A program made the position numbers and the translations under genes. From contig NW_004457313.1 of NCBI RefSeq assembly GCF_000313135.1, positions 1,185,151-1,249,150 on the forward strand: a DNA stretch of 64,000 nucleotides. The letters are read 5' to 3'. This document shows positions 7,837 through 32,682 of this stretch, one piece after another. The stretch is from Acanthamoeba castellanii str. Neff (lineage: Eukaryota > Discosea > Longamoebia > Acanthamoebidae). The first letter of the stretch is position 1. Every line of letters starts with the position of its first letter. The notes under the pieces were generated by a model, which made no database searches, was not told the DNA's origin, and saw nothing but the letters and a program-made list of their open reading frames with translations.

Positions 7837-10800
7837 TCATGCCATCGTGCTCGCACCACCGCCCGCACCATCGAGAAGGGACTCGAGGAAGGCCAGCACG
7901 GCCTCCATGGTTGGTCGCCGGTCGGGCACCCCGTGCCAGCACTTCTTGACCATCTTCTTGAACTCGTGCGGGCAGTCGCCGGGGATCTGCGGCCGACGGC
8001 CCTCGAGCACGTCGAGCGACACGCCCATGAAGTTGCGCCCGGCGTAGGGTTGCTTCCGCGTCAGCACCTCCCACATGATCACCCCGAACGAGAACACGTC
8101 GGCCTTCTCGGTGTAGCGATCGCCGCGGATGACCTCGGGCGCGGTCCAGCAGGGCGAGCCGCAGCGGGTCATGGTCACGTTCTCCTCCTTGATGCGCGCA
8201 AACCCGAAGTCGGCCACCTTCACGTTCCGGTTCTCGTCGACCAGCAGGTTCGACGGCTTCAGGTCGCGGTGCACGATCACCGGGTGCAGTGGGTGCGGGT
8301 AGTTGATCCCGAGCGCCGCCGAGCGGAGCAGCCGCAGCTTCTGCTGCCACGGGAGCTTGATGGCGTTGTCGAGTAGGATCTCCTTGAGCGAGCCCTGCTT
8401 GACGAACTCGGTCACGATGCACAGGTTGGGCCGCTTGACGCAGGCGCCGATGAAGAGCACGATGTTGGGGTGGTGCAGCTCCGAGAGGAAGGCCATCTCC
8501 GCGCGGAACTCGAGCATGCGCCGCTCGTCCAGCTTCTGCTTGATGAACCGCTTCACCGCCACCTCCACGCCCTTCCACACGCCCTTGTAGACCATGCCGT
8601 ACGAGCCCATGCCCACCTGCTTGCCCATCGTGACCTCCTTGAAGTCGAGGATCCAGCGCACCATGTTGGCCGACGTGAGGAAGTTGTCCTCCTTGAACAT
8701 CATGCCCTCGCCCACCTCCGTCTGCAGCTCCTGGGACTCCTCCATCTTCGTCGTCGTCGTCACGCCGCCGAAGAACCTCGCCTGCAGTCCGTCCGCCTTC
8801 ACGTCGTATAGCTTTATCCCTGTGTTTTTCCGAGTTGTGAGCGCACAAGCACACACCGCACACGCGCACCGCACACGCACACGCACACACGCCACACAGC
8901 CCTGTGTCCCCCCCCCCCGAGATGTGAGCGCACATGCGCACACGACTGGACACGCACCGGTAGGGAAATCGGGGGTCTCGAACTTGCCCACGCAGGTGGC
9001 CTTCTCGAGGAGCGCCTCGTCGGCGAACCGCAGCTGCTCGAGAGCGACCTCCGACGCGAGGATCTGGCCGCCGTGCGCGAGCGAAGTGATGCGCGCTGCG
9101 GCGTTGACCGTCGCGCCCACGTACTCGACGCGCCGGGACTTGGGGTCGCGCACCAGCTTGGCCTCGCCGACGTGGACGCCCATGCGCACGCGCAGGCCGC
9201 GGAAGATGACGCGGTTGTCGGTGTCGCCCCACTCCTCGGCCGCGCCCGGGTGCTCGAGCAGGGCCTCGGGCCACTCGACCTTGACCAGCTCCTGCTGGGC
9301 CTCGGAGCACCACCCGACCGCGTTGACCGCGTTGGTGAACACCATGCAGAAGGAGCCCTCGCCGCTGTTGCGCTCGCGCACCAGCATGGCCTCGTAGCCG
9401 CTCCACCGCTTGAGCAAGTCGCGCAGGACTTGGTTGTGCAGCAGCGTCGCGTCGCGCATGGCCTGCGCGTTGAACTCCCAGAGCGTGGAGGCGCGGGTGA
9501 CGTCGGTGAACACGATCGCCACCCGGCCGTCGGGCACCGGCGCGCGGTCGATCGTGCGCGTGAGCCGCGCGATATCGCCCATCTCCGACGACGCGGTTGA
9601 AGAGCGCCCGCCGGCGCTGGCCTCCAAGCCCCGCATCGAGCGGCTGTGGTTGGCCCACTTGCCGTTGGGCAGCTTGAAGATGTTGCCGGACGCGCTGCTC
9701 GAGTTGTTGGACGAGGTATGCGACGTATGGCTCACGGACTGGTCGCCGACGATGGCGCTGAGGCGGGTCATGATCTCGAGGAACGTGGGCCGAATGCCCG
9801 AGTCGTAGTGCCAGCAGTTGGTGATGAGGGTGGTAAAGTCGGCTGGCGCGTCCTCGGGCACGGTGGGCCGCAGCTGGTCGCGGATGACCGCCACCGCCAC
9901 CGCCGCCGGGCTGAGGGTTTCGTAGGGCTGTTGCCGAGTGAGGAGCTCCCACATGATTATGCCTGTGCCACCAGCCGCGGCTCAATCAGTACGCACGCAC
10001 GCACGCACGCACTATCGCACACGCACACGCACACGCACACGCACACGCACACGCACACGCACTACCGCACACGCACACGCACACGCACACGCACACTCAC
10101 ACGCACACGCACACGCACACGCCGTACCGAAAGAGTATACGTCGGCGAGAGCGTAGTCGATGTCCTTGGCCTCGTTGAGCACTTCGGGCGCGGTCCAGTG
10201 GATGCTCATCTGATGGGCCGGTCCGTGGTTATTCTTGGCGTCCTCCTTGAACTGGGTGAGACCGAAGTCGGAGACCTTGACGTTCCACTTGTTGTCGAGC
10301 AGCAGGTTGAGCGACTTGAGGTCGCGGTGCACGATGCCCGACGAGTGCAGGAAGTGCATGCCCTTGGCCGCCTGGTACGCCATCTTCACCTTCAGCGCTA
10401 ACGGCAGCTCCGGGATGAGCTCGTTGTGCAGCAGCTGCGCACACACCACAACCGTTACATGATTGGCATTGGTTGATAAAAGCTAAAAGCTAAAAGAGGT
10501 GGAGCTGATTGGCGCGAGTGGATTGCCAAGGGAAGCGGTACGTCATAGAGGGAACCGAGAGCCATCAGCTCCATGACGATGCACATCTTGGGCTTCTTGG
10601 TCGACGCGGCCATGAACAGCACCACGTTGGGATGCCGCAACGCCGTCATCACTCGCACCTGTTGTCAACACACACACACACACACACACAAGGTGATTGC
10701 GTCATCGCTCAATCTTGTGAGTGATGACACTGGTGGTGCGGGTGAGAGGGCGCGTGCGTACCTCTTCGACGAAGCTCCGCTCCATCTCCTTGTTGACATC

Positions 10801-13800
10801 CTCCATGATGAGGAACTTGACGGCGACCTCAGTGCCGCGCCACTTGGCCCGGTAGACCTCGCCGTAGCCGCCAGTGCCCAGGTGCTCCTCGAGCTCGAGC
10901 TCGTTGGGGTCGATCTCCCACTGGTCGCGCTGCCCGCGGCTCCGGCGCCAGGCCACCGCCAGGACGCACAGAACCACGAGCCCGAGCAGCAGGACGATAG
11001 CCACCGAAGGGATCACCGCGCCCAGCACCGCCGCGAGCGCCGTCGAGTCCAGCCCAGACGACGAGCTCGCCTCCTTAACTGCGTGCGCGCAGAAAGTCCC
11101 CTCCCAGCCCTTGTTGCACTGCACCACCACCACCACGAAGTGGTTAGAGGTCGGAGGCTCCAGAAGGCCGCTAAGTTTCAAGGGGGTGGGGAAGTACAAG
11201 GCAGCTGCCGTTGAAGCAGGTGCCGCGGTCGGAGCAGATGGTGCCGTTATCGATGCAGCCGGCCAGCGGACTGACGGCCTTGCCGTCGCACGTGACCGCC
11301 TTGATTTGGTTCAGCAGATGGGCGAGGAGCGGCTTGTGAGTCCCGGGGACCGCCATCGAGTACCTATGCGCACCGTGGTCAGCCCAGACACCACCTTTTC
11401 TGGCCATCGCGTCGATGGGTGATCTGGTACCTTACTGCCGTACTGGCCGCGACGGCTTCGGTCTGCGACCAGTAGACCCACTCCACCAGGGCCTTGGCCT
11501 TGGTGCAGTCCTGCATAGAGGTAGTCCTGAACAGCAGCGAAAAGAACCCCACGACCGGCCAGCTCGCCTCTCCTGAGTCTGTCCACGCCAATCGGGGATG
11601 AGTGCGGTGCAGTTTGATTGCGATTGGCGGGGCAGCAGGTACCGAGAAGGACGGACTCGTCGGTCGATGTGAGGCTTGCGAGCGCGGCGTGGATGTTGGC
11701 CGGCTCGGCGCTGGAGACGTTGCCGGCCGCGTTCAGTAGCCGGGCCTGGCCCAAGAAGAGCTGGTAGTCGCGGTACTCTCCGCTCACCAGCCACGCCAGA
11801 CTATAGAGCGTGTCTGCGGCGGTGGATGCCACCGCGCTTGGCGCAGCGTACACGACCCGGTCGGGCAGGTCCTCGACGGGATAGTGCACAGACTCTCCGG
11901 ACCCCACCTGTGCGTGCGTGCGATGAGTCACGGTGCCAGAGAGAAGAGAGAATGGCCGGCGCCCGCGCACCGTTGATTCGAAGTCAGAAGAGACGAGGCT
12001 CAGCGCCTGAGTGATCAAGAGCGTCGCGCTGCAGGGCGTCGATGGCAGCACCAGCTTGATGAGCGCGTTGGGCAGGGCTATACTGGGGTTGAGCGCCGCG
12101 ATGGCGGTGTCGTTCCACCACGCCACCTGGTTGAGCATGATCTGCGCCAGAAGCTCCAGAGACAAAGTCATGTTGACCGGTTGTAGGACCGGCCCACCGA
12201 CAATCTGCGCCACCGAGCCACAGACGTTATAATCACGCAGGTCGCGATGGAACAGGAAAAAGCGCGCACCCGATACGCGGGGATCAGTGCGTAGGCGTGC
12301 ATGGCAAACGTCTCTGCGTCTGGAATCTGCAGCTTCTGGTCAGCGGTGAGCCCAGAGCCCACAAGCCCAAAGTCGATGGTTCCTAAAGGCAATGGACAAA
12401 GCCGTCAGCAATCACCGTGCAGCCGCTTGGAATGTTGGGATCACGACGAACCCTTTGCCACCAGCTCGACGGTGGTCGATTCATCGCCAGCGCAATATTT
12501 GACCTGGAACTGTGGGTCATAGTTTGCGTAGACGTTGGCCAAGTCGGGCAGGGCTTGCTGCTGCGGACCTAAGGCGACCGACCACGCCACGCCGAGGCTC
12601 CGCTCTCCATCGCAGAGCAGGGTGCCCAAGAGGTCGATTATTTGTTTCTTGTACGGCAACGTCAACGGCACCTGTGCAGCACCACGATCACATTTGAATG
12701 CGAGATCGTGAGCACCATGTGAGTTTGGCCACTCAGGAGCCCAAGCGCAACGCACCCATCCTAAATCTTCAGCCCACGATGCGATCTGGTACACACGGGT
12801 ACACACGAACACACACGGGCAAATTGTAAGCAATAGAAGGTGAAAGAGGCTGATGGCGGGGCGACTGTTACCTGGTCATTAATTTGGATCCAGGCGAGGA
12901 GCTGCTCTGCTTCTCTGATGAGAGGGCAGAGGTCGGCGTCCGACGATACTAATCCTGCGCCCAGGAACATGATGTACGAGAAGGGCCATGCGTCATCGGC
13001 TCCCGCGTCGTCGATGCTCACGAGCAGGTCACCCGCTGTAGTATAGACCATACCAGCAATTATGTGGCTGGCCTGATGAAAAAAGAGCCTGAGAACTCAC
13101 CTGAAACGCTGTCGCTGACGTTGGTCAAGGCAGCGCGCATCGTGTGAACGGACGCCTCCACTACGTGGCCCGCCCGATTCTTCATCGACGCCACAGTCAG
13201 CTCCGGAGAATGCTGCAAGGCAATCGGCTGTTCGATGATCCCCAGCGTGTAGTTGGTGTCCTGTTGTCGCGCGAGGAAGCGAAAAAGTATGGGTGTAAGC
13301 CTCGGGGGACACTGGTGCTGGTCGTTGCGGTCGTACGGTTACTGCTTGGGCGACGGCGGAAGTGGACGCGACCGCCAAGAGCCGGCCTTCGACGGCCACG
13401 GCCAGGCTACTGAAGTTGCGCGACGCACTCGTGAACGCGTCGCAGAAGTCAGTGTCGAACGAACACACCACCTTGCCAAAGAAGATCGACAGATCGGCCA
13501 CGCTGGGCGGCATGACCAAGACGATGTCCTTCTCTGGCAGGGTCGCGCTGGGATTGAGCGTGCTGATGCGTGAGTCATTCCACATCCGGATAGTGCCCAG
13601 CCAGATCGCGGCAACCGTTGGTCGGTCCAGCACCTGGCCACGTGTGGCACACCAGCGAGAGTGAGCGCTTCGAACCACGTCAGCACACGGCCAGAACCCG
13701 AGGGGTCTACCAGAATGTGAGAGCCCAGCTCGGGTAGGTTGTAGGGCAGCACGACCGAGCTGGCAAAGATGGGAAGTACGGTGAGACCGACGGGCGGGAA

Positions 13801-14220
13801 GGCAGCGACGGTCGGTGCTGAGCGCCGCCACCAGACCCTGGCCCAAAGCCTGCACCGCCTGCCCGAAGGTGGGCGTCGGGAAGTACTGCAGAGACAAAAT
13901 GTCCTGTGTTGCCCCCCCCCCAGGCCACCACGGTTACTGTGTACACATAACACGAGCGTAGGTGTTCTACTCGCACCTTTTTGCAGCGGTAGCCCTCCGA
14001 TACTCGGGTCCATATGGCTGAGTTGGTGGTACCCCCACCAGCGAATGTGACCCCCTCCACTCCTGTCCCCTCAGCCTTCAGTCCGCCGTACTACGCATCA
14101 TAGATTGCAAAAAAGAAAATGCGGAAAAAATAGAAAGAAAAACACACCAAGACGGGGCAGGGAGAAGGCAGCGATGAAGAAGAGAGCGAGGGTGGTGAGC
14201 GCGAATCGATGAATCATCAT
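7837..14220 (-). CDS. Receptor A: 2x PstS-like / EGF / TM / TKL kinase / class III cyclase / TKL kinase
   Basis: Predicted single-pass plasma-membrane receptor. The start at 14220 gives a signal peptide (MMIHRFALTTLALFFIAAFS). Two periplasmic-binding domains of PstS type follow, at about 13100-14060 (VLDRPTVAAIWLGTIRMWND) and 11300-12400 (LELLAQIMLNQVAWWND). An EGF-like segment (CSDRGTCFNGSC, GWEGTFC) and a helix near 10950-11030 come next. Kinase 1 shows LGTGGYGEVYRAKW, VAVK, HRDLKSLN and DFG. The cyclase domain (9000-9560) has IVFTDVT and VNAAARIT. Kinase 2 has MGSYGMVYKG, HRDLKPSN and DFGFAR. Introns interrupt throughout, one full of CACACG repeats. Near 13810 the first binding domain appears to shift frame by one base, so the copy may be damaged or the assembly wrong. 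It is tandem with receptor B. Confidence 0.8.
9989..10122. repeat. Intronic CACACG/CACG microsatellite in receptor A
   Basis: Runs of CACACG and GCACGCAC fill the intron separating the DVYSFG part of kinase 1 from GIIMWELLTR. The flanking acceptor (tggcacag) and donor (GTACGG) restore the conserved kinase subdomain IX. Confidence 0.9.
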
Positions 14221-14620
14221 TATCTCGGCGTCACCGCGGCCACTTGGTGTTAGTGTGAAAGAGATAAAAAAAGGGCGGGACGACACAGTTGCTGATTTGC
14301 GCCGGCGGCCCTGGATTGCGGTGTAGCACGAGGGCTGGATCAGCTTTCAGCCATCCCATGGGCGCTCCTGCACTACCAATCGGTTGCTACGCACACCTAA
14401 AACCAGTCGACCTCGTGTTGAGGTGCACCTCGATCCTGTCTGATCTGCCAAGCTTTCCCTAAAACAGGGACAATTTTTTCCCTTTGCGTTTGGGCAAGTA
14501 ACCGACCGTGTGGTCTCGCTCATTGTTTGGCCTTGACTGAGAAAAGTTGAGAGCCAACATATACACCAATGCGTAAATGTGATGTGTTGTATATTCTATG
14601 TTGTTCTATGTGGTTGTTGT
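14221..14620. other. Intergenic, receptor A 5' flank / receptor B 3' flank
   Basis: 400 bp between the receptor A start and the receptor B stop. It presumably contains the receptor A promoter and the end of the B transcript. No RNA gene or repeat is recognised. Confidence 0.5.
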
Positions 14621-17600
14621 TTACACGATTTCGCCTCCGCTGCCGTGGCACTGGGCGAGGTGGTCTTCGAGCAGCTCGATGACGTCCTCCATGGCCGGCC
14701 GCTTGTTGGGGTCCGAGTGCCAGCACTTCTTGATGAGCTTGGCAAAGTCCTGCGGCGTGTCGGGTGGCACCTGCGGGCGGCGGCCCTCGAGCACGTCGAG
14801 CGACACGTCCATGAAGTTGCGTCCGGCGTAGGGCTGGCGCCGAGTGAGCACCTCCCACATGATGATGCCGAACGAGAACAGATCGGCCTTCTCCGAGTAC
14901 TTCTGTCCCTGGATGATCTCGGGCGCGGTCCAGCAGGGCGTGCCGCAGCGGGTCATGGTCGCGTTGTCCTCCTTGATGCGCGCGAACCCGAAGTCGGCCA
15001 CCTTCACGTTGCCATTGTCGTCCACCAGCAGGTTGGAGGGCTTCAGGTCGCGATGCACGATCACCGGCTGCAGCGAGTGGAGGTAGTCGACGCCGAGCGC
15101 GGCAGAGCGCATGAGGCTCAGCTTCTGGCCCCACGAAAGCTTGATGCTGGTGTTGGAGATGATGTCCTTGAGCGAGCCCTGGCGCACGTACTCGGTCACG
15201 ATGCACATGTTCGGCTGGCGCACGCAGGCGCCGATGAAGAGCACGATGTTGGGGTGGTGCAGCTCCGACAGGAAGGCCATCTCGGCGCGGAACTCGAGCA
15301 TGCGCCGCTCGTCCAGCTTCTGCTTGATGAACCGCTTCACCGCCACCTCGACGCCCTTCCACTTGCCGCGGTAGACGATGCCGTACGACCCCATGCCGAT
15401 CTGCTTGCCCAGCTGGATCTCGTCGTAGTTGATGATCCACCGGCACAGGTTGGCCGACGTGAGCGACGAATCCTCCTTGAACATGAGCCCGTCGCCCACG
15501 ACCGACTGCACCTCGCTGTCCGACGACACGTGCGACCGCACCGAGCCGCCGGAGCTGTAGCTCTCCACCGAGCTGTGGGAGCTGCGGGAGCTGCGCGACA
15601 GGCTGGCCCCGCCGCGGATCTCCTTGTCCTGCGTCACGCCGCCGAAGAACCGGGCCTCGAGGCCCGTCGCGCGCAGCTCGTAGAGCTTCTCGCCCTGGAT
15701 CAGGTCCGGTATACTGAACTTGCCCAGGTACAGGATGCGGTTCTTCTCCTGGGCGAGAGGCGTGTCGCGCAGGCGCTCGTAGACGTCGCGCGACAGCAGG
15801 ATCTGGCCGCCGTGGGTGAGGGCCGTGATGCGGGTGGCCATGGTCACCGTCGGACCCGAGTACTCGACACGCCGGGTCTTGACGTCCTTGATGGCCTTGG
15901 GAGTGCCCAGGTGGACACCCATGCGCACGCGGAGGCCCTTGAAGAGAACCTTGTCGTCGGTGTCGCCCCACTCCTCGACCGCGCCCGGGTGCTCGAGCAG
16001 CGAGCGCGGCCAGTCGATGGTGAGCAGCAGGCGCTGGGCGTCCATGCACCAGTTGACGGCGTCTATCGGGTCCTGGAAGGCCATGCAGAACGACCCCTCG
16101 CCCGAGTTGCGGTCGCGGATGAAAATTACCTCGTAGCCGCGGTGCTTGCGCAGGATCGAGCGCAGGGCCTCGTTGTGCAGCAGCGTCGCGTCGCGCATGG
16201 CGTTGGGGTCGTACTCCCAGAGCGAGGCGGCGCGCGTGATGTCGGTGAACACGATCGTCACCTCGCCCTCGGGCGGTCGCACCGCGTCGCGGTCCTCCAG
16301 GCGCCGCCCGGTCCGCGAGGCCTTGGAGCTGGCCCGCGACCCGCCGCTGCTCTTGGACGACACCGAACCGCGGTCGGACGGTAGTGTCCACGACGAGTTG
16401 GACCGCGGGATCTTGGGCTTGTTGCTGGTGCCGGTGGCCGACGACGACGACGAGCGCGAGGTGAACATGGCCGTGCTTGAGTCGCCGTGCATGGACGAGA
16501 GGCGGGTCATGATTTCGAGGAAGGTCGGGCGGATGGTGGGGTCCTGGTGCCAGCACGAGACCATCAGCTCAACGTAGTCCGGCTGCGTGTCGCCCTCCAC
16601 TTCCATCAGCGTCGGTCGCAGGTTGTCCCTGATCACGGCCACGGCCACCGCGGCCGGGCTCAGTCCGGCGTAGGGCTGTCGCCTGGTCATCAACTCCCAC
16701 AAAATGATGCCTGTAAAGAGGGTCAACGACGGTCATTCGACGTCAACGATGGTCGTCAATCAAACAACTGTTTGTCAAGCGTGGTCAGCGTACCAAACGA
16801 GTACACATCGGCGAGGATGTAATCGATCTCGGGCGACTCGTTGAGGATCTCGGGCGCGGTCCAGTGGAGACTGCCCTGGGCGTCCTTGGCGCCGGACTTC
16901 TTCATCTCCTCGCGGAACCGGGTGAGGCCAAAGTCGGAGACCTTGACGTTCCACTTGTTGTCGAGCAGCAGGTTGAGCGACTTGAGGTCGCGGTGCACGA
17001 TGCCCGACGAGTGCAGGAAGTGCATGCCCTTGGCCGCCTGGTACGCCATCTTGGCCTTGAGCGTGAACGGCAGCTCCGGGATGAGCTCGTTGTGCAGCAG
17101 CTGTAGCCCACCACCACCCAACAGGAACCGGTTTAGCCACAACAAGTGGAGAAAGGGGCCGTGCAAGGAAGACGCGTCTCGGTCAGTACCTCGTAGAGCG
17201 AGCCCAGGGCCATGTACTCCATGACGATGCACATCTTGGGCGGCTTGGTGCAGGCGGCCATGAACAGCACCACGTTGGGATGCCGCAGCGCGGTCATCAC
17301 GCGCACCTCTTCGATGAAGCTGCGGGCGGTGTCCTTGCCGAAGGCCGCCGGCGGGATCATCTTGACGGCGACCTCGGTGCCCCTCCAGCGCGCGCGGTAC
17401 ACCTCGCCGTAGCCGCCGGCGCCGAGCGGATCGCCCATCTCGAGCTCGTCGGTGGAGATCTCCCAGTCGTTGCGGCCGCCGCCCTTCTTGCGGGCGAAGC
17501 AGCAGAGGCACGCGATGACGCAGGCCATGATGAGCAGAATGATGCCCACGACCGGCAGCGCGATGCCGAGCGACAGCGCCAGGGTCGTGCCCGTGTCGTC

Positions 17601-20600
17601 GGAGCTGGAGGAGTTGGACTGGCAGTAGCTGCCCGAGAAGCCGTTGTCGCACTGGCAGCGCGAGTTGACGCACACGCCGTGGTCGCTACACACCATGTCG
17701 TTCATGATGCACGAGTAGACCGAGCTGGCCGGCTGGCCGTTGCACCGCACGCGCGACAGCTGCGAGACCATCCTGCGCTTGATCGCGCTCGACTTGCTGG
17801 CGACGACGACAAAGTTACGGTCGGCCGCCAAGTCGGCGGTCGTGCTCGACTGGGACCACCACATGAAGTCGTACAGTGCGCGCGCCTTCACGCAGTCGCC
17901 CGTGGTGACCGTGTGCGCGATCAGGGAATTGAAGGTGACGACAGGATATCCGCTCGGTTCCGGACCTAAAAGATTCCGAAAGAGGTCAGCACCAATCGCG
18001 TTTGGGCGCTGAGTCTAGCCATTGGCCGATTGGAGCAAGGCTGACGCACCCCAGATGGCGCGCAGGTTGGTGATGTCGGCGTCCTGCAGGGCCGCGGTGG
18101 TGGCCGCCGTGGTCGGCTGCACGGCCTTACCGGCGGCGTTGACGATGGCCGCCTCGCGCAGCTTGCGCTGAGTGATGATCTGGCCCGCCGAGGCGAACAC
18201 GAACGAGTAGGGGTTCGCCGCCACATAGGGGATCGTCACCGTCGACGTGCCGGTCATCAGCGTACTGCAGCGGTTGCAGTGTCAGCTTCGTGCAGTCACT
18301 CGGGGCTCCAGCACAGAGGAATGGTTGACGTACGAGCTGTTGCTGCCCACGACCGGGAAGGGATCAGGGTAGCCGGTTACGCCCACCGTGGAATTCCAGT
18401 TACGCACGGCTTCGGCCAGGACCTGGGTCCACACCTGGGTGACGACCGAGAAGCCCGAGGAGAAGACGGGCATGATCTCGCGGTCGGGGAGAAGGTCCTC
18501 GATGGTGGGGTTGAGCGTCAGGATGGCTTCGTCGCGCCAGTTCGTGATCGTGTTCCGCAGGATGCCCGCCACCACGTTCATGTTCAGGACCAGAATGCCC
18601 TTGTTGAGAATCTCGGGCAGCTGCGTGTGCGAGAGAGTCTAGGGTCAGACACGTAACAAGCCCAACCCTTCAGTGTGGTCGTGCGTACGTTGTAGACAAA
18701 GACCATGGGGAAGGCCGTGATGGTGAACAGCTCCACGTCCTCGCCGATCTCGTGGAGCGTCTCTTGGCTCAACACGTAGCTCGTGGCGCCAAAGTCGACG
18801 TCATCTGATCATAGGCAAACATTAATCAACAACTGTCATATTGCAAAAAGGTATAAGGCGGCGCTGGTGTACCATCCTGCATGGCGGTGATGGCGGCGGC
18901 GGTGGTGCTGTCAAAGTACTTCTGGACGTAGGAACTGGTGGAGTACTCCTGAGCCCAATCGTAGAAGGCGGAGAGGGGTCCGCCCGTGCCGATGAGGTAG
19001 GCCACGGTGAGGGCCTGTTGGTCTTGGCACTGGAGCAGGACGAGCAGGTCGATCAAGCGCTTCTTGTAGGCGATGGTGAGCGGCGCCCAGCCGTTGGTCT
19101 GGAGCGTGGTCTCCGTCTGGCCATTGGTGGCCACCCAGGCCAGGATCTCCAGGAACTGCTTCAACGGAGTACAGTCCTGCTAGCGCAATGGAAGACGAGT
19201 AACAAGAAATGCAATAGCCTTTAGTAAGAGCGAAGACGAAAGCGAAGACGAAAGCGAAAACGAGGTAAGAAGGTATTGGTACTGTTGTGTTGGTGTTGTT
19301 GAGCACGCCGACGAGGGAGACGTAGGGCATGGGCCACGTGTTGGTGCCATTGCCATCGATGATGTCGGCCGACAGGTCTCCTTCTTTCGCCCATTAAGAT
19401 GGGTAGGGGTTAGGCATCGCCCCACATAAACAATCCACGCACACAATGCAGGACAACGAGAGAGCCAGTAATGCAAACCTTGGTGGACAGTTTCAATGAA
19501 GTCGTTCATGGCCGACTGCACGTTGGCGGCGGTGGGCTGGACAATATTGCCCGCCCTGTTCACCATGGCGGCGTAGCTCATGTTGGATTGTTGAAGGAAG
19601 GCCGGATAGTCGATGTACGTGATGCTGTAGGCATTGTTCTGAGATTACACCATTTACATTCGTCAACACATTAACCACAATACCACTACTGTAGCCGCCA
19701 CCAATATCATCAGCGCATCACACCAGGGGGGGCGAAGGGGGTACCCTGACGTAATCGAAGCGGTCCGTGGGGTTGTCGAATCGCATGGCCTTGCCATTCT
19801 GGGCCGGCGGCAGGCCGGCGAGCAGGCCACCGGCGGCGTTAAGCTGCTGGGCGAATTCGGCGTTGAATATGGAGAGGGCGGTCTTGAACACCTGCGAGCC
19901 GGCCGTCCCGATCAGGGTCTCGGTGAAGCTCATGGTGATGGGCACGTCGGGCAGGTCCGACGAGGTGAGGTTCTGGTTGAGCGCCAGGATTGCGGGATCC
20001 GCCCACGAGGTGATGGAGCCCATGAATATTTGTGCCAGGGTGTTGCCATCCAATACCTGCATAGAGAATGACACGCGCCTATTAACTCCACCCAATCACA
20101 CGTGAGTGGTTGGGGGGGGGGCGAGGAGACCAGCTGATAACTCAAACCGGGCAGGTTGTAGGCAACGACGAGGGCCACGCCGGCCAGCGGAACCTGCGTC
20201 AGCCCGCTCGGGACGAGGTCTTGCGAGATGGCACTGTCCAGACTCACGAAGTCGGCGTTGCCCGCAGCGAAGGTGGCCAAGGCTGTTTCCGCGGTGGTCT
20301 CTTGTGTGTACTGTACCACCACGTTGTCCCTTCGGTACTGGTAGCCTGCATGCCACCGCATTGCAACACCATCCCAAAGATAAGTTAGTTCCCTCCCCTT
20401 GGCGCATCTCTTGTGCTTTTTTGGGCCAGTGAAACGAGAAGCGAAGAACGAAAGCGAAACCGGTGGGTTCACCCCTGTGGGAAAAGAACGGGAAAAAATA
20501 GAACGAAAAGCGAAGGGCACAAGAAGAGGTGGAAGAAGAAGAGGTACCACTGCTGAGCTGCCGCCACAGGGAAGTGACGGAACCGGAGGAACCGACCCCG

Positions 20601-20781
20601 GTGATTACGAGGGCTCCTGTGCCTGCTTTCGTGTGAGAAAAGATGTTAGTTTGGGAGGGAAAGAGCATGAACACTTTCATAGACTTGGAAGTAAGTAGGG
20701 GCGGGAGTTCGTACCAGCGAGGAGAGAGAAAAATATGAGGGTGCAGAGAAGGAGGAGTGGGCTGCGGCGAAGTACGGCCAT
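14621..20781 (-). CDS. Receptor B: 2x PstS-like / EGF / TM / TKL kinase / cyclase-like / TKL kinase
   Basis: Same architecture as A and C. The ATG at 20781 gives the signal peptide MAVLRRSPLLLLCTLIFFSL. Binding domain 1 (about 19720-20650) contains LDGNTLAQIFMGSITSWADP. Domain 2 (about 17880-19160) contains MNVVAGILRNTITNWRDEAI. The EGF-like knot has CSDHGVCVNSRCQCDNGFSG. The membrane helix is at about 17500-17585. Kinase 1 carries LGAGGYGEVYRARW, VAVK, HRDLKSLN and DFGLTRF; kinase 2 carries MGSYGIVYRGKW, HRDLKPSN and DFGFAR. Cyclase, linker and kinase 2 lie in one long exon (14621-about 16710). Its cyclase has FTDIT, but where A and C read VN-AARIT it reads VTMATRIT, replacing the catalytic Asn, so cyclase activity is doubtful. 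The linker is Ser-rich (SSRSSHSSVESYSSGG). Confidence 0.85.
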
Positions 20782-21636
20782 CCTGTGTGGGGTCACTGGC
20801 GACTACGACCACGAAACTATAGGTACACGGTGCTGATGGCGGCTGGGTCTTCCTCCCGGCCAGGAATCCCTCCTTGTTCAAAAGGCACCACCCGAGACTT
20901 GCGGCGGAGTCGGGTGTGGGAGCAGACGTGTCTTGCTGCTGGGCGGGGGGAGACAACAACACTGGAGAACGGGCCACAAGACGCGAACAGACACCCACGC
21001 AACACAAGGCGGTAAGACAACCAAATCGTGGTGCCGTATCTCCTGCTGCGATCTTGGGGTAGGGGCTTGCGCTTGGGTGCTTAGTGTGAGCTCACAGTGC
21101 CTTGATTAATTTGGAGTTTCCAGTTTTCTGCGAGTTTGGTCCGCTCCGGTTGGTAGCCAGGTCGATTCTCGTTACCGAGGTCCCTTCGAACTCTCCGATG
21201 GGTGGGCCATTGGCTGGCGTTTTCTCCCCTTCTCCCCCACTTCTCTGCACTTCTGGTCGGCCAGCCAAGTTGAAACACAACGTTGGCGCAGGGGAAAAGG
21301 TCCACTTCTTTTTCCTGGCTGACGGCGTGGCCCCTACCAGGACTGGAAAAGGAACTTCAGAGCGAAGGGCACACGCCACACGACACACATGAGCCGCCAC
21401 GCCGATTACTCGCCTTGGCCCCAAGCCATTCCAACAGATTTTCCTCAACGCGAGAACCCCCTATCGCGCCAGGATTTTTCCTTCTGATTTTAACTCCGAG
21501 CCCACCTGGCACTCTCCGGTTGGGAGAAGCTGCACAGTACGATCTTGATCTCCTTCTCCAACGTTGTTGTGTTGCCGCTCGGGGGGGGGGTACAGCCTAC
21601 TTCTTCTTTTTCTGCCCAGGCCGTCTCCCCTCTTCT
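20782..21636. other. Intergenic, receptor B 5' flank / PDC 3' flank
   Basis: 855 bp. Several short frames are open on both strands but none shows a domain or reasonable splice partners. No RNA gene or repeat is recognised. Confidence 0.5.
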
Positions 21637-24535
<2,899 letters not shown>

Positions 24536-25588
24536 ATGGAAGAAGAGAAGAAGATAGTGGAGGAGATTGGGGAGAAGGAAGGAGCAGATGCGGCGAATGG
24601 CACCCCCTCCCCTTCGCCCTCGAAGAAGAAGCAGAAGCAGGTGCACGGCATCCTCAAGAGCGGCAAGAAGGAAGCCAGGTGTGCCTTCTCCTTTCAACTC
24701 ATGCCTGCTGAGGTCGATCTATTAAGCATATTCTGTCCTCGATTTGCAGGAACTCAGGAGTCGTCTGGGATGAGGACAATTTGATTTACAATGAATCAAA
24801 CAAGAGCGCTACGATGAAGATCGACGAACCGCCTACGCCCTATAACAAGGAATACGATTCGGCCGAAGATGATGAAGAGGAGTCCACGTCGTCGTCAGAG
24901 AAGGAGAAGGGATCGAAATCGGACGATGATGGCGAGCGCACGTCCAGCGCTACTCGCAGGAATCACAGGGAAGACATCAAGACCGAGGAAGCTGCCCGTG
25001 CTCACTTTGATCAAGTGAGCACCGCTCTCGAGGAAAGCAAGCGGCGCCCGGCCAGAACCGCACGACCGCGCTTCTCCAGCGACGAAGACACCACCGAAGA
25101 TGATGAAGGCGCCGAACACGGTACCGGCCACCCTATCTCTCTTCTTTTGCCTTCTCTTCTAGTCCGGTTGGTGTGCGTCGTCGCTCTGCGGAGCCAGTTG
25201 ATCCTGTCGTGCTTTATGAATAGTCCTCTCTTCGCCTGTCTGCTGTCGCTGCGTGCTGTTGTTGTTGGCGGAGCCAGGTGACGCTTGATCTGTGGTCTGA
25301 CGTCTGTTCTCACACAATCGCACAGGAGAGAAGCGCGGCGAGTTTAAGAAGAAGCGCATGCAGCACTACAACGAGTGGAAGAGGCTACAAGAGTTCAGGA
25401 GAAGGTACTGCTCGTTTACAAGATGAGGAAAGCTCTACTTTAGGACCAACGTTGTGCCTGACTTGTGTACTCGCCGTAGCCACAGCAACGACGCCAGCGA
25501 GGGGGAGGACGACGCGGAGGAAGAAGAGGACGACGACAAAGATAGGGATGACGACGACACCAGGACCGCCAAAGCGCTGAGGACGTAA
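24536..25588 (+). CDS. PPP1R2: Protein phosphatase 1 inhibitor-2 homologue, 233 aa, four exons
   Basis: Regulator of the PP1 catalytic subunit. Exons 24536-24678, 24750-25120, 25326-25404 and 25480-25588 total 702 nt. All three PP1-contact regions of inhibitor-2 can be seen: HGILKSGKKEAR (KGILK motif), WDEDNLIYNESNKSATMKID (with the following EPPTPY matching the KIDEPxTPY motif), and KRGEFKKKRMQHYNEWKRL (the active-site-occluding helix with HYNE). The Thr in PPTPY is the conserved GSK3/MAPK phosphosite. Long acidic Ser/Glu/Asp stretches lie between and at the end (EDDAEEEEDDDKDRDDDD), as usual for this disordered protein. It is divergent from PDC. Confidence 0.9.
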
Positions 25589-26732
25589 ACATTTCCGACC
25601 GCCGATTATCTGACAGGGCTCTCCCACTCTCCTCGCTCTCTTCGTCGCTCGCAAACCCAGTTTCGCATCGGGGCCTAGGGCGCTCACGACTTGTACATTC
25701 GCCTGTACACACCCCATATACCGCAAAAACCCTACTTTCACTCGATGTCGTCTCTCTCTTTGCTGCAAGGAGTGTCTACGTGTCCGTCGGCCGTGAGATC
25801 CAGGACCAGGCGCCCGTGTGGGCCGTGAACTCCCCTCCCCCTCTCCTCACCTTGTCTTCTCCCGCTTTTCATGGTCATCTCTGCCAGCAACATGCCACGA
25901 GCCCAACAACTTTGAGTACTCCAGGTGATGAAGGCAACAGGCAGTTCACGGCGACCATGAAGGCAGAGCGCCCATTGGCTGTTGCTTCACGCATTCACGG
26001 TCAACTCAGCCGCCAAGACACGGACTACTCCTTGCACCCAAAATATGTGCTGTTTGGTAGGTTTCTCCAGTGGTGGAGTGCGGGCCCTCGGGTCCTGTAC
26101 AACGAGGAATAATGCGTTCACTCTTGATATGCTCCTACCATGTCCATGGTGGACTGCGCGCGGGCTAGGGACGAGCACAGATAGAGCCGGCTCAGCCTCT
26201 CAGCAAGACGTGTAACCGCAAGGTCCCCAGACAGTCAGGCAGCCAGACAGGCGTTGAGCTGGGAAACATCCTTATGGCAACCGGTGCCACGGCCAATCAG
26301 GTACGCGCGCTGTTAGACTCTGTGATTTCGGTGGCCCGGCGGTTCTAAATAGAGCTTAATGTGTGGCTACCTGCTTCGCTTCTCAAGGTAGCAAGCGCAG
26401 TTCATAAATGGCAGACCAATGGGCGTCTGGTTGGAAAGGTCACACTTGCTTCACCTCGACCTGGTACCCCAGGTTCGCGCTTCGCCTTGTCGTCTCTATG
26501 CCGCGGTGGTCTCCTCCTCAGATCCACCAGAGGGCATAAAAGCCCTCTCTTCGCTTCTCTTCTTTGTCATTCCCTCCACCGACAGCAAGCCACCCACCTT
26601 TTCTCGCCCCCCAGAACCCTCTCTTCTCTCGACGGAGGAGGGCTTGTACAACACCACATCTTGCTCTCGACGGAGGAGGGCTTGTACAACACCTCATCTC
26701 GCTGTCCCACAGCACCACCACACAGCATCATC
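25589..26732. other. Gene-free 1.1 kb upstream of receptor C
   Basis: No supported coding region. It contains the 38-bp tandem duplication at 26626-26701 and presumably the receptor C promoter and 5' UTR. Pyrimidine-rich stretches at 25830-25870 and 26500-26600 could belong to the 5' UTR. Confidence 0.5.
26626..26701. repeat. 38-bp tandem duplication in receptor C leader
   Basis: CTCTCGACGGAGGAGGGCTT followed by GTACAACACC occurs at 26626 and again at 26664, with 8 bp of similar spacer after each. It lies immediately before the receptor C ATG. Each copy contains a GTAC that could act as a donor. Confidence 0.9.
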
Positions 26733-29700
26733 ATGCGGTGCGGATCAGCCACCACGGTCACTCTTTCCTGGGTCCTGCCCTTCGTCCTGCTCCTCCTGGG
26801 TACATGCTCGTCCTTTAGGGCCCTCACGTTTTCATCGCCTTCGTTTCTACACCTTTGTAACATTTTTTTTTGCTGAATTTGGTCTTGTGCTACCATGCAA
26901 TACGTATGTTGTACACTCACTTCTATTGCACACTCACTTCTCGTTCTGGGTCTCCCTAGGCACAACTGCAAGCGCCAGCGGCGCTGTGACCCTGTACGGC
27001 GTAGGTGAGTACTCTCTGGTGGGCGCCCTGTCCAGCGTGGCCTCCAGCTACTCGGTCCGTACCACAACACTCGCCTCGCTCATTTTCACCATTCGTCGCC
27101 CCTTTGCATCTTCTTGTCTCACGTTTCGTCTACTGCGACTATGACAGTACCACAGGGATACGGTGAGCGTGGCATATGTGGGGACGCCGAACGTCTCCAC
27201 TGTCCTGTTGGCCTTCACTGCTCGCTACAGCCAGTACGGCGCCCTCGACAGCCAAATTGATGAGGACATGCTCGCAGCGGACACGCTGCAGCTGCCCATC
27301 TTCGGCTCGGGCATCGTCTTCAACTACAACCTGGGACCCTCCACACCCACACAACCCCTGGTAACCTGCCCCCCCCCCTTATCCCCTTCTTTTGATGTTG
27401 AGAAGCTTCGGCTCATCCCCTAAACTGCAGGTGTTCGACGCCGAAACTATGGGGCGGATCTGGAGCGGCGACATCACCAAGTGGAACGACTCGGCGATCG
27501 CCAGCCTCAACGAGGATATCGACACGCCGCTTCCCGGCGATGACATTATTCTGTGCTGGGGCTCCACCACGGAAGAGTCCATCACGCAGACCTTCAAGCG
27601 CGGTCTGCGGGCCATGAGCCCCGAATTCGACGCGGCCCTGACCGCGGCCAACGATGACCTGGGCTCTCTCCCACCTATTCTCGCCGGCAGGGGCATCGCC
27701 ATCGCCACCAACAGCTCCGGAAGGATCAACTGCACTCAGGTACGTATTGGCAGACCCACGGCGAGCGCGCGCGCGCACACACACACACACACACGGTACA
27801 CCCTCACGACATATTAACACCTGACCATTATCATGTCCACTTCTCTTTGACAGGCCACAGAGTACAGTCTCACCTACTCGGACTGGGCCTCGGCTCTGAA
27901 GTACCCCAACAACGCCCGTATGCGCAATAAGGCCGGCAAGGACGTGGCAATCAGCGTCACCTCCCTCCAAGCGGCTATGAAGGACTTTCAAGTCCTGCTT
28001 CAAGATGGTACAGGTGAGCCAACTAAAAAAACATGCGCGTACAGCACCTTGACAACTGAGCTAACGAACTATGTTCTTTTCTGTGTTTTTTAGGCGACTT
28101 GCTGATCCCGCTGTTCGACGGCGAGGGTGACTCCTCGTACCCGTTCGCCTACATGTCGACTGTACTCATCGTCAAGGAGGGCAATCAGAGCGACTGCACA
28201 ATCCCGCAAGAGATGACGCAGTACTTGAGCTGGATCTACACCAACCAGCACGTCTCGGATCACATGTCGACCCAGGGCTGGGCGCCGCTCACGGTGGCCT
28301 ACAGGAAGATGATCATCGACGTACTTGGCATCGTCACGTGCGACGACGAAGAGGTCCTCACCACGGCCTATCTCATCGGCGAGGGCACGTCGCGCCCCGC
28401 GCTCTCCGACCTAGCCGGTCAGTATCCCTCGAGCACCGTCACCCAGAAGTACTTCACGAGCGATATGGCCACCGCCATCGTCGACATGAAGCAAGGTACA
28501 CACACACCACACACACACCACACCACACACACACACACACACAAAAGCACAAAGCACAAGCATGGGTTGTCTATTCACCTCGCTCCACCCGGCCAGGCGC
28601 AATCGACTATGCCGATGTGACGACCGGCGTCACCGGCGCACAGTTGGTGGGAGCTGAAGAAGCCAACATGGACATTGTGCCCGTCCTCGGCTATGCTGTC
28701 TTCCCGTGCTACAATGTACGTGATCGCCCCTTCTCTCCACTGATCACAAAATCTCCACGAAACCTTGGCGTGCTGACGAACCATCATGATTCAGATACCT
28801 GCGCTTCGATTCCATCCGCTGTCGCTCAACCTGACGCTGGAGATCTGGGCCGGCATCTACCTCAATCAAATCACGACCTGGAACCACCCGAGCATTGTGG
28901 CTATCAATCCGGCCTTTGCGTCCATCCTCTCAGCCCTCCCCATCAACATCACCGTGATGCTGGGCACCGATCCCTCGCCCCTCACGCGCATGGTGACCAC
29001 CGTTCTGAGCGACGCCAGCCCGGACTTCAACTCCACCGTCGGTGTTGTCGAGACGCCGGACACCTACACGGTAGCGGGCGTGGTCAACCGGACCGAAGCC
29101 GTCGCCGGCGCTGAGTCCGCGCTGGCCGCGAAGATGAACGGCATAATCAACACCTTCGCGGCGCTCTCCAGCGGCCAGCTCGCCACGGCCAAGAGCGTAC
29201 GCATGGCCGCGCTGTACAATCCCACCACCGGCAACTACGTCGTGCCGTCGACCGCTTCCATCCAGTCGGCCATGCGCGACCACGACAACGAGTCCCTCAT
29301 TCACCTCTTCCTCGGCGCTCGCAATTGTACATTTTCCCCCTTCACTTGCAGCTTACTGTAAGCGCCGTACTAAACAAAGCTCTCTACATTACCACATCCA
29401 GCGCCGGGCGCAGACAGCTACCCGCTGGTGATGTACGACATCCTGCTCATCTCCAAGAACTCCTCGGACTGCTCGAAGGCTGCGGCACTATCGGACTGGA
29501 TCTACTGGACCCAGAGCGACAGCGCGGCGAGGAAGGTGGCCGAGCGGAACGGCGTGGTGCTCACCAGCGACGTCACCGTGTGGAAGCGGATGATGCTCAA
29601 GGCCGTCACGGGCATGACCTGCAACGGCCTCAAGGTGAGCTCCATCGCCGGCTGCGTGGCGGACAGCACACTCTGCTCCGACCGTGGGCGCTGCATCTCC

Positions 29701-32682
29701 AACGCCTGCGAGTGCGACGCGGGATGGACTGGCACCTACTGCGAGACCAGCATCAACACGTCGAGCTCGGGCAGCGACTCGACCGTGCTCGCGGCCATTC
29801 TCGGCTCGGTCCTGCCGGCCGTGTTGCTGGTGGTCATCCTCCTCGCCGTGCTCGTGCTGGTGCTCGTGATGCTGGCCCGCCGCAAGCGAAGCAAGGACGC
29901 GTGGGAGATCGACACCAACGAGCTCGAGATGGCCGAGACCCTCGGCGCGGGCGGCTACGGCGAGGTGTTCCGGGCCAAGTGGCGCGGCACCGAGGTGGCG
30001 GTCAAGATGATGTCCGCCCGGGACAGCCTCCTTACCAAGGACATGCAGCGCAACTTCGCCGAAGAGGTGCGAGTGATGACGGCGCTGAGGCACCCCAACG
30101 TGGTGCTGTTCATGGCCGCCTGCACCAAGCCGCCGAACATGTGCATCGTCATGGAGTTCATGGGCCTCGGCTCGCTCTACGAGGTACTGACCTTTACTTG
30201 TGTCCAAGAAGAGATTGATTTGCTCATCACCATTTTTTTGGTCGTTGTGTGCGCGCAGCTGCTGCACAACGAGCTCATCCCGGAGCTGCCGATCGCGCTG
30301 AAGGTGAAGATGGCGTACCAGGCGGCCAAGGGCATGCACTTCCTGCACTCGTCGGGCATCGTGCACCGCGACCTCAAGTCGCTCAACCTGCTGCTCGACA
30401 ACAAGTGGAACGTCAAGGTCTCCGACTTTGGTCTCACCAAGTTCAAGGAGGAGTCCAAGAACTCGGGCCTGGGCCAAAACGCCCTCCAGGGCTCGATCCA
30501 CTGGACCGCGCCCGAGGTGCTCAACGAGAACCCCGACATCGATCTCATCCTCGCCGACGTGTACTCGTTTGGCATCGTGCTGTGGGAGCTGCTCACCCGC
30601 GAGCAGCCCTTCGCCGGCATGAGCCCCGCGGCCGTGGCCGTGGCCGTCATCCGCGACAACCTGCGCCCAACGCTGCCCGAGATCGACGCGGTCGAGACCA
30701 CGCCCGAGTACGTCGAGCTGCTCACCAGCTGCTGGCACGCCGACCCCACGATCCGTCCGACGTTCCTCGAGATCATGACCCGCCTCAGCGCCATGATCGG
30801 CGACTCGAGCAGCACCATGTACTCCAAGACCACCTCGTCGTCGTCGTCATCGAGCGGGCCGCAAGTGGCCGTGGCCAGGCCCGGCATGGACGCCTCGTGG
30901 ACTCTGCCGTCGTCCGTGACCGCCACTTCATCGTCATCGGGCAGCGGCAACAGCCGGTCGAAGGACTACTCGGGCAAGCTGGGCGCGGCGGTGGCCGCCG
31001 GCGGCGTGCGGGCGCCCGAGGGCGAGGTGACAATCGTGTTCACCGACATCACGCGCGCCGCCTCGCTCTGGGAGTTCGACGCGGCGGCCATGAAGGACGC
31101 CACCATGATGCACAACGACGCCCTCCGTGCGCTCCTCAAGCAGCACAGTGGCTACGAGGTGGTGTTCATCCGTGACCGCAACAGCGGCGAGGGCTCGTTC
31201 TGCCTCGCGTTCCAGAGCACCGAGGACGCGCTGATCTGGTGCATGGAGGCCCAGCAGACCCTGAACAAGCTCGAGTGGCCCGAGGCCCTGCTCGAGCACC
31301 CGGGCGCGGCCGAGGAGTGGGGCGACACCGACGACCGTGTGCTGTTCCGCGGCCTGCGCGTGCGCATGGGCGTCCATGTGGGCATTCCCAAGGTGGTGCG
31401 CGACCCGATGACCCGCCGTGTCGAGTACATCGGCGCGGTGGTCAACACCGCCGCGCGCATCACGGCCATCACGCACGGCGGCCAGATCCTCGTGTCGCAC
31501 CACGCCGCCCTGCGTGTGCAGCACTCCGAGCTCGTCCGGGAGAAGAATCGCCTCGCATGCCTGGGCAAGTTCGAGATGCTCGACAGCGAGCCCGAGGGGG
31601 CCAAGCTCTACGAGCTCAAGGCGCGCGGACTCGAGGGCCGTTTCTTCGGCGGCGTGTCTAAGGACAACGAGCTCGTGCCGGAGGCGCTCAGGCGCAACGC
31701 CCGGAAGCAGCAGCACGCGATGGACCGCTCGCCGAGCCAGCGCGAGCTCGACGCGTCGTTCGCGTCGTCGGCGGGCAGCAACGACAGCGACGAGGCCCAG
31801 ACGGCCGTGGGAGAGGGCATGATGTTCAAGGAGGACAACTTCCTCACGTCGGCCAACCTGTGCCGCTGGGTGCTCGACTTCAACGAGATCGCGCTGGGCA
31901 AGCAGATCGGCTCGGGCTCGTACGGCATGGTCTACCGCGGCAAGTGGAAGGGCGTCGAGGTGGCGGTGAAGCGGTTCATCAAGCAGAAGCTGGACGAGCG
32001 GCGCATGCTCGAGTTCCGCGCCGAGATGGCCTTCCTGTCGGAGCTGCACCACCCCAACATCGTGCTCTTCATCGGCGCCTGCGTCAAGCGGCCCAACCTG
32101 TGCATCGTGACCGAGTTCGTCAAGCAGGGCTCGCTCAAGGAGATTCTCATCACCAACAGCATCAAGCTCACCTGGTCGCAGAAGCTAGGCCTGCTGCGAT
32201 CGGCCGCACTCGGGATCAACTACCTGCACTCACTGCACCCGGTGATCGTGCACCGCGACCTGAAGCCGTCGAACTTGCTCGTCGACGAGAACTGGAACGT
32301 GAAGGTGGCCGACTTCGGGTTTGCGCGCATCAAGGAGGAGAACGTGACCATGACCCGCTGCGGCACGCCCTGCTGGACCGCGCCCGAGGTCATCCGCGGC
32401 GAGAAGTACTCGGAGAAGGCCGACGTGTTCTCGTTCGGGGTGATCATGTGGGAGGTGCTGACGCGGAAGCAGCCATACGCCGGGCGCAACTTCATGGGCG
32501 TGTCGCTCGACGTGCTCGAGGGCCGTCGGCCGCAGATCCCGCCCGACACGCCACAGGACTTCAAGAAGATGATCAAGCGCTGCTGGCACGGCACGGCCGA
32601 CAAGCGGCCGGCCATGGAGGAGGTCATCGGCTTCCTCGACTCCATCCTCGCCGGCGACGCCTCCGCCGCTGACAAGGTCTAA
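26733..32682 (+). CDS. Receptor C: 2x PstS-like / EGF / TM / TKL kinase / class III cyclase / TKL kinase, 1703 aa
   Basis: Best-resolved member. Ten exons: 26733-26799, 26960-27054, 27148-27360, 27431-27739, 27854-28013, 28094-28495, 28597-28715, 28795-29335, 29402-30183 and 30259-32682, total 5112 nt. The signal peptide spans about residues 1-25. PstS-like domain 1 (to about 420) has FDAETMGRIWSGDITKWNDS; domain 2 (about 440-700) has LEIWAGIYLNQITTWNHPSI. EGF-like about 712-745 (CSDRGRCISNACECDAGWTG). TM about 765-795. Kinase 1 about 813-1075 (LGAGGYGEVFRAKWRG, VAVK, HRDLK, DFG). Cyclase about 1150-1330 (IVFTDIT, VNTAARIT). Kinase 2 about 1439-1697 (GSGSYGMVYRGKWKG, HRDLK, DFGFAR). Both kinases keep all catalytic motifs and look RAF/TKL-like. 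The natural ligand is unknown; phosphate or another small anion is only a suggestion from the fold. Confidence 0.9.

Follow-up and report, generated by a model that had tools for sequence, protein, structure and literature searches.

A stretch of 64,000 nucleotides from Acanthamoeba castellanii str. Neff (contig NW_004457313.1, positions 1,185,151 to 1,249,150 of the forward strand; hereafter, the window), which is part of an intron-rich genome of 38.4 Mb, carries three related receptor genes, which we call receptors A, B and C. The extracellular half of receptors B and C consists of two tandem periplasmic-binding-protein folds of the PstS type (type II), after which come an EGF-like knot and one transmembrane helix, and in all three receptors a class III cyclase is flanked by two kinases. 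All three fall within the Acanthamoeba family of kinase-cyclase-kinase receptors that is already published, and we think it probable that their PstS-derived heads sense varied extracellular ligands while driving one standard signal. The tail of these receptors is already known; what is added here is the identity of the heads and the alteration of their sites.

A previous sequence-only reading of this DNA had proposed a tandem PstS-type ectodomain from motifs. This was borne out by a PstS-like profile that was rebuilt for each tested gene without that gene (leave-one-out), which matched the ectodomain of A at 1.7e-83, that of B at 5.5e-144 and that of C at 1.5e-165. In the same search, shuffled ectodomains and cytoplasmic parts, used as controls, gave no profile match, and the ectodomain matches therefore exceed chance. 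Sequence homology to PstS was detected by profile in both domains of A, B and C and also in both domains of a paralogue on contig C99, and the fold of the first domain is supported by the predicted structure of P0005, a relative of receptor C described below. With Pfam, receptor C matched PBP_like_2 twice (5.7e-16), EGF (1.6e-06), a kinase twice (1.2e-127) and Guanylate_cyc (8.2e-11). At the level of exons, a PBP_like_2 place lay no more than 6 kb upstream of 14 of 54 cyclase places in the genome, compared with 2 of 54 in the downstream/other-strand control; we preferred our own leave-one-out profile because the Pfam PBP_like_2 model misses many such domains. A simple hydropathy scan identified one transmembrane-like stretch directly before the kinase in all 14 models scanned, a set that receptor A lies outside of. 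A second such stretch near the N terminus was seen in 8 of the 14 models, that of receptor B at residue 34 of a model that is incomplete at its 5' end. Receptors B and C thus carry an extracellular domain and a single transmembrane helix ahead of the catalytic part.

The spliced models of the receptors were made with a small purpose-written exon-intron program, and the coordinates previously assigned to the three genes proved correct. The features are as follows.

7837..14220, minus strand: receptor A, with its ATG at 14220, its end at 7837 and a signal peptide at 14220-14146; its layout is a tandem PstS-like ectodomain, kinase 1, cyclase and kinase 2
9028..9528, minus strand: class III cyclase domain of receptor A (contig positions 1194178-1194678)
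14621..20781, minus strand: receptor B, one spliced frame from the signal peptide (20781-20715) to the stop, about 1,650 amino acids
15761..16273, minus strand: class III cyclase domain of receptor B
26733..32682, plus strand: receptor C, 10 exons in one frame, 1,698-1,700 amino acids
26733-26799, 26960-27054, 27148-27360, 27431-27739 and 27854-28007 or 28013, plus strand: exons 1-5 of receptor C
28094-28495, 28597-28715, 28795-29326, 29402-30183 and 30259-32682, plus strand: exons 6-10 of receptor C
26733..26799, plus strand: signal peptide exon of receptor C
26960..28339, plus strand: first PstS-like domain of receptor C, exonic parts (Pfam and profile; fold through the relative P0005)
28340..29661, plus strand: second PstS-like domain of receptor C, exonic parts (Pfam and profile)
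29653..29745, plus strand: EGF-like knot of receptor C
29776..29880, plus strand: single transmembrane helix of receptor C (hydropathy scan)
29902..30840, plus strand: kinase 1 of receptor C, in exons 9-10, with VAVK, HRDLK and DFG intact
31015..31566, plus strand: class III cyclase domain of receptor C (Pfam and solved-structure relatives)
31891..32631, plus strand: kinase 2 of receptor C, with VAVK, HRDLK and DFG intact

All nine introns of receptor C are of the GT-AG type. Its exon 27854-28007 appears to end at 28013 instead, as suggested by the two extra residues that P0005 has at the 28007 junction. Several alternative 5' splice choices are compatible with receptor B, and its length is about 1,650 amino acids with these. 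In receptor A, both kinases, the cyclase and the second PstS-like half were located, but around position 13,813 two adjoining matched pieces of the first PstS-like domain differ in frame and an intron cannot fit between them; this break stems either from damage or from an error in the assembly. The earlier proposal of continuous spliced frames, each encoding a single polypeptide, was thus upheld for B and C only.

Introns split the second PstS-like domain in the genes of the window. In all three receptors, numerous introns separate the signal peptide from the kinase, as would be seen if the ectodomain and kinase halves were separate neighbouring genes fused by gene prediction. We consider this explanation extremely improbable. 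P0001, from a JGI source (a contig of 5,346 bases), contains the entire architecture in one open frame of 1,704 amino acids, and a single 883-amino-acid exon of the C99 paralogue covers the signal peptide, both PstS-like domains, a weak EGF match, the transmembrane helix and the kinase start; in both, the two parts are linked without splicing. In receptor C itself, the end of the second PstS-like domain, the EGF-like knot, the transmembrane helix and the kinase start share exon 29402-30183. We infer that P0001 derives from RNA, because its frame is uninterrupted while genomic B and C have nine or more introns. P0005, also from a JGI source (a contig of 1,627 bases), is 89.4% identical to receptor C over the first 470 residues; it crosses the first six receptor C junctions and then continues into an apparent translation of intron 7, a pattern that would be that of a partly spliced transcript. 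As far as sequence goes, P0001, P0005 and the C99 exon favour one product over two genes.

The sequence-only reading had leaned toward phosphate-type sensing, that is, toward PstS-like domains that still bind inorganic phosphate and receptors that report phosphate supply. The clear homology to PstS and the fold speak for this reading. To compare the binding site, we aligned 32 halves (15 first and 17 second), taken from 18 proteins of which P0001 is one, with PstS, whose phosphate residues in E. coli we take to be Thr10, Phe11, Ser38, Asp56, Arg135, Asp137, Ser139, Gly140 and Thr141. The equivalent of Arg135 was found in none of the 32 amoeba halves but in 78 of 79 bacterial relatives (among the matches listed, in a larger alignment), and two first halves carry Lys in its place. 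The equivalents of Thr10, Phe11, Asp137, Gly140 and Thr141 were absent or occurred in at most 3 of the 15 first or 17 second halves. Among the same listed relatives, Asp56 was present in 67 of 79, Ser139 and Gly140 in 66 each and Thr141 in 65. What remains in favour of phosphate is the Asp56 equivalent, which is still Asp in 9 of the 15 first halves, and the equivalents of Ser139 and Ser38, kept in 13 and 7 of the 17 second halves, respectively. The halves therefore have the fold and the sequence homology of PstS but not its set of phosphate-binding residues. Because every half examined has lost the Arg135 equivalent and the other site residues are for the most part scarce or missing, phosphate binding in the manner of PstS appears unlikely, and the alignment leaves room for binding in some other mode. 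On the whole, we regard phosphate receptors as an improbable explanation, and the earlier claim was not sustained on this point. Unlike bacterial PstS, with which they have sequence homology and fold in common, the amoeba heads are doubled, membrane-anchored, fused to kinases and devoid of the phosphate arginine.

In a tree of the PstS-like halves and the 79 bacterial relatives (among the matches listed), the second halves form one group (0.91), and the group with all first halves also contains 13 bacterial sequences; this tree supports no donor or transfer count. The bacterial set, 79 loci kept of at least 463 confirmed, was picked by similarity to one amoeba half and to P0002, and is hence biased.

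The genome contains at least 54 cyclase places, and we modelled 28 receptor loci (20 from first fetches, the three receptors of the window and five others; L037 and L040 were fetched but lie outside the models). These loci were chosen by similarity to P0001 or by cyclase or 5'-nucleotidase matches and are not a random sample, and several models are split or begin after the 5' end. PstS-like ectodomain sequence was present in 26 of the 28, with both halves covered over at least 290 residues in 12, some as two pieces. Among 14 full proteins including P0001 (91 pairs), median pairwise identity was 30.1% in the ectodomain, 68.7% in kinase 1 and 69.7% over the 290 residues at the C terminus. This comparison of sequences shows that divergence is far faster in the ectodomains than in the kinases, which suggests that a variable sensor is set on a conserved output.

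Two of the modelled receptors, L033 (contig C80) and L173 (contig C234), bear a 5'-nucleotidase-like head instead of the PstS-like pair. The heads match PF02872 at 2.7e-23 (L033) and 7.4e-28 (L173), and that of L033 also matches 2z1a at 2.7e-36; both precede the same kind of EGF-transmembrane-kinase-cyclase-kinase tail, as partly judged by eye for L173. The part concerned in L033 is:

L033:3519-5261, contig C80: part of the 5'-nucleotidase-headed receptor

In both heads, DAGN replaces DAGD and GNHE is absent; we take DAGD and GNHE to be catalytic motifs of metallophosphatases. Because these motifs are altered, the two heads look catalytically dead, with the C-terminal domain kept.

The exchange of heads bears on a further hypothesis, namely, that the flytrap fold serves as a scaffold for binding proteins or glycans, whether of self, prey or virus, with no small molecule in its cleft. 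Paralogues have kept the fold and not the pocket residues, their ectodomains diverge fast, and structural relatives of the domain exist in giant viruses of amoebae, all of which would suit recognition of proteins or surfaces. However, the heads that replaced the PstS-like pair in two receptors belong to another ligand-handling periplasmic fold, which hints that binding of small ligands matters. We view the scaffold hypothesis as rather unlikely.

In the tails of A, B and C, both kinases retain the VAVK lysine, the HRD (HRDLK) aspartate and the DFG aspartate, the motifs of active kinases. The TKL label of the sequence-only reading was examined on the kinase starts of two paralogues only (C99 and L033), which have CTR1, MLK, KSR and RAF as their nearest solved relatives. 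For the cyclase of receptor C, the nearest solved relatives are the trypanosome receptor adenylate cyclases GRESAG4.1/4.3 (1fx4, 4.9e-19; 1fx2, 3.7e-17). The site of a class III cyclase presumably comprises two metal-binding acids, base-selecting residues and a transition-state Asn and Arg. The first metal Asp is present in 22 of 22 cyclase models, and the position aligned with the second is Asp in 13 and Glu in 3. In receptor C, the aligned counterpart of the trypanosome second metal Asp is the Asp of 'IRDR', after which comes a six-residue insertion; a GEGSFC motif lies within the insertion after the likely second metal Asp in 17 of 22 models. Asn and Arg occur together in 13 of the 22; A and C have both, and B has Thr for Asn. 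At the position of the trypanosome 'YEVK' lysine, which we assume to be a base-selecting residue, receptor C has Val. Pfam found no cyclase in the tail exons of C99 and L034, the C99 piece starting 465 bases into the second exon. The cyclic-nucleotide output of the receptors is uncertain, because the cyclase site departs from that of its nearest solved relatives.

Other receptors of related design differ in composition. Trypanosome receptor adenylate cyclases have a large flytrap-type ectodomain and a single transmembrane helix but are not known to carry kinase domains. The animal natriuretic-peptide receptor guanylyl cyclases combine a flytrap ectodomain, a single transmembrane helix, a kinase-like domain and a cyclase, but their flytrap is of type I, their kinase-homology domain is inactive and they are not known to have a second kinase at the C terminus.

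As for how PstS-derived sensor heads might drive the standard signal, each receptor would bind an extracellular ligand in or around the Venus-flytrap cleft. The ligands would differ among paralogues and are probably not inorganic phosphate held in the PstS way. Closure of the hinge could alter how a receptor dimer packs across its single transmembrane helix, and the altered packing might switch on kinase 1, which would then control the cyclase module and kinase 2. Many different sensor heads would in this way drive one standard internal signal, as expected of chemoreceptors for the environment or for prey. Several points weigh against this interpretation. The ligand, the dimer and the enzyme activity are putative; the predicted structure covers the first PstS-like domain only; and damage to receptor A in its first domain is possible. 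An unusual site is seen in the cyclase, whose domain is degenerate in several paralogues, so that the cyclic-nucleotide step may be absent. In addition, the low conservation of the pocket is also compatible with a scaffold that has no small ligand.

Kinase-cyclase fusions in Acanthamoeba had been mentioned in the sequence-only reading, and they are indeed published as a large family. According to the cited parts of the 2013 genome paper, A. castellanii has 67 nucleotidyl cyclases in which an extracellular receptor domain and one transmembrane helix are combined with a cyclase that lies between two kinases, and an arrangement of extracellular domain, transmembrane helix, kinase, cyclase and kinase occurs in giant viruses too (PMC4053784). 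In the corresponding part of the 2015 Physarum genome paper, 66 of these 67 cyclases form one amplified family, with 43 in Physarum (PMC4758236), an answer on other Amoebozoa that covers the tail and not the ectodomain. Receptors A, B and C share with this family the extracellular domain and the cyclase between two kinases, and B and C also the single transmembrane helix. The cited passages leave the identity of the extracellular domain unstated (PMC4053784, PMC4758236); here it is a tandem degenerate PstS or a degenerate 5'-nucleotidase. Titles and abstract openings listed from the PMC open literature, queried mostly with all terms, named no PstS-like or phosphate-binding ectodomain for these receptors, although P0001 is already labelled by automatic annotation as a kinase/phosphate substrate-binding protein. 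Our protein searches scored approximately 8,000 candidates each, from which near relatives are perhaps absent, and the lack of a match in other amoebae is thus uninformative. Overall, the earlier observation was confirmed in part, and its interpretation was partly supported.

A Foldseek search of BFVD with the P0005 model returned the viral proteins A0A0B5JBP5 (4.6e-26), A0A0B5J011 (Ser/thr kinase; 1.2e-23) and A0A2K9V9A7 (Serine threonine kinase receptor fragment; 1.8e-14). The predicted structures of these receptor-like kinases of giant viruses (Pandoravirus, megavirus) match the fold of the PstS-like domain, with a high root-mean-square deviation of 6.8-12.6. Scans of viral contigs with P0001 and with the tail alignment A2 confirmed no relative. 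The kinase-2 alignment A3 gave 53 loci in viral contigs, in which the profile, applied to six-frame segments longer than 60 amino acids, detected no PstS-like domain at E values up to 1. These negative scans leave giant viruses as possible carriers of such heads, because the Foldseek search did give matching viral proteins.

One could envision a wider scenario, which we offer as speculative and on balance doubtful. On at least two occasions, an amoebal chemoreceptor superfamily would have acquired periplasmic proteins with which bacteria scavenge phosphorus (PstS and a 5'-nucleotidase of the UshA/CD73 type), disabled their original chemistry and made them interchangeable heads on one kinase-cyclase-kinase tail. 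The heads would read phosphorus-containing or other metabolites released by prey, such as nucleotides, and giant viruses of amoebae would share the PstS-like heads. The family was published in 2013, and the cited passage terms its outer part only an extracellular receptor domain (PMC4053784). A doubled PstS fold that lacks the phosphate arginine, together with two 5'-nucleotidases with altered motifs, provides concrete domains for expression and ligand screening. With these domains identified, it becomes possible to test how parts of bacterial origin may serve a free-living amoeba, and perhaps also its giant viruses, in sensing the surroundings.

The receptor cluster reaches past the window, with more members on the same contig at about 1,165, 1,259, 1,269 and 1,435 kb. 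Elsewhere in the genome some paralogues have few exons in our models, namely, two in L002/L039 (contig C99) and five in L034 (contig C203). Between receptors B and C, at 21637-24286 on the minus strand, lies a gene for a thiamine-pyrophosphate enzyme (TPP_enzyme_C, 5.9e-12; TPP_enzyme_M, 5.7e-10), which presumably resembles a decarboxylase.
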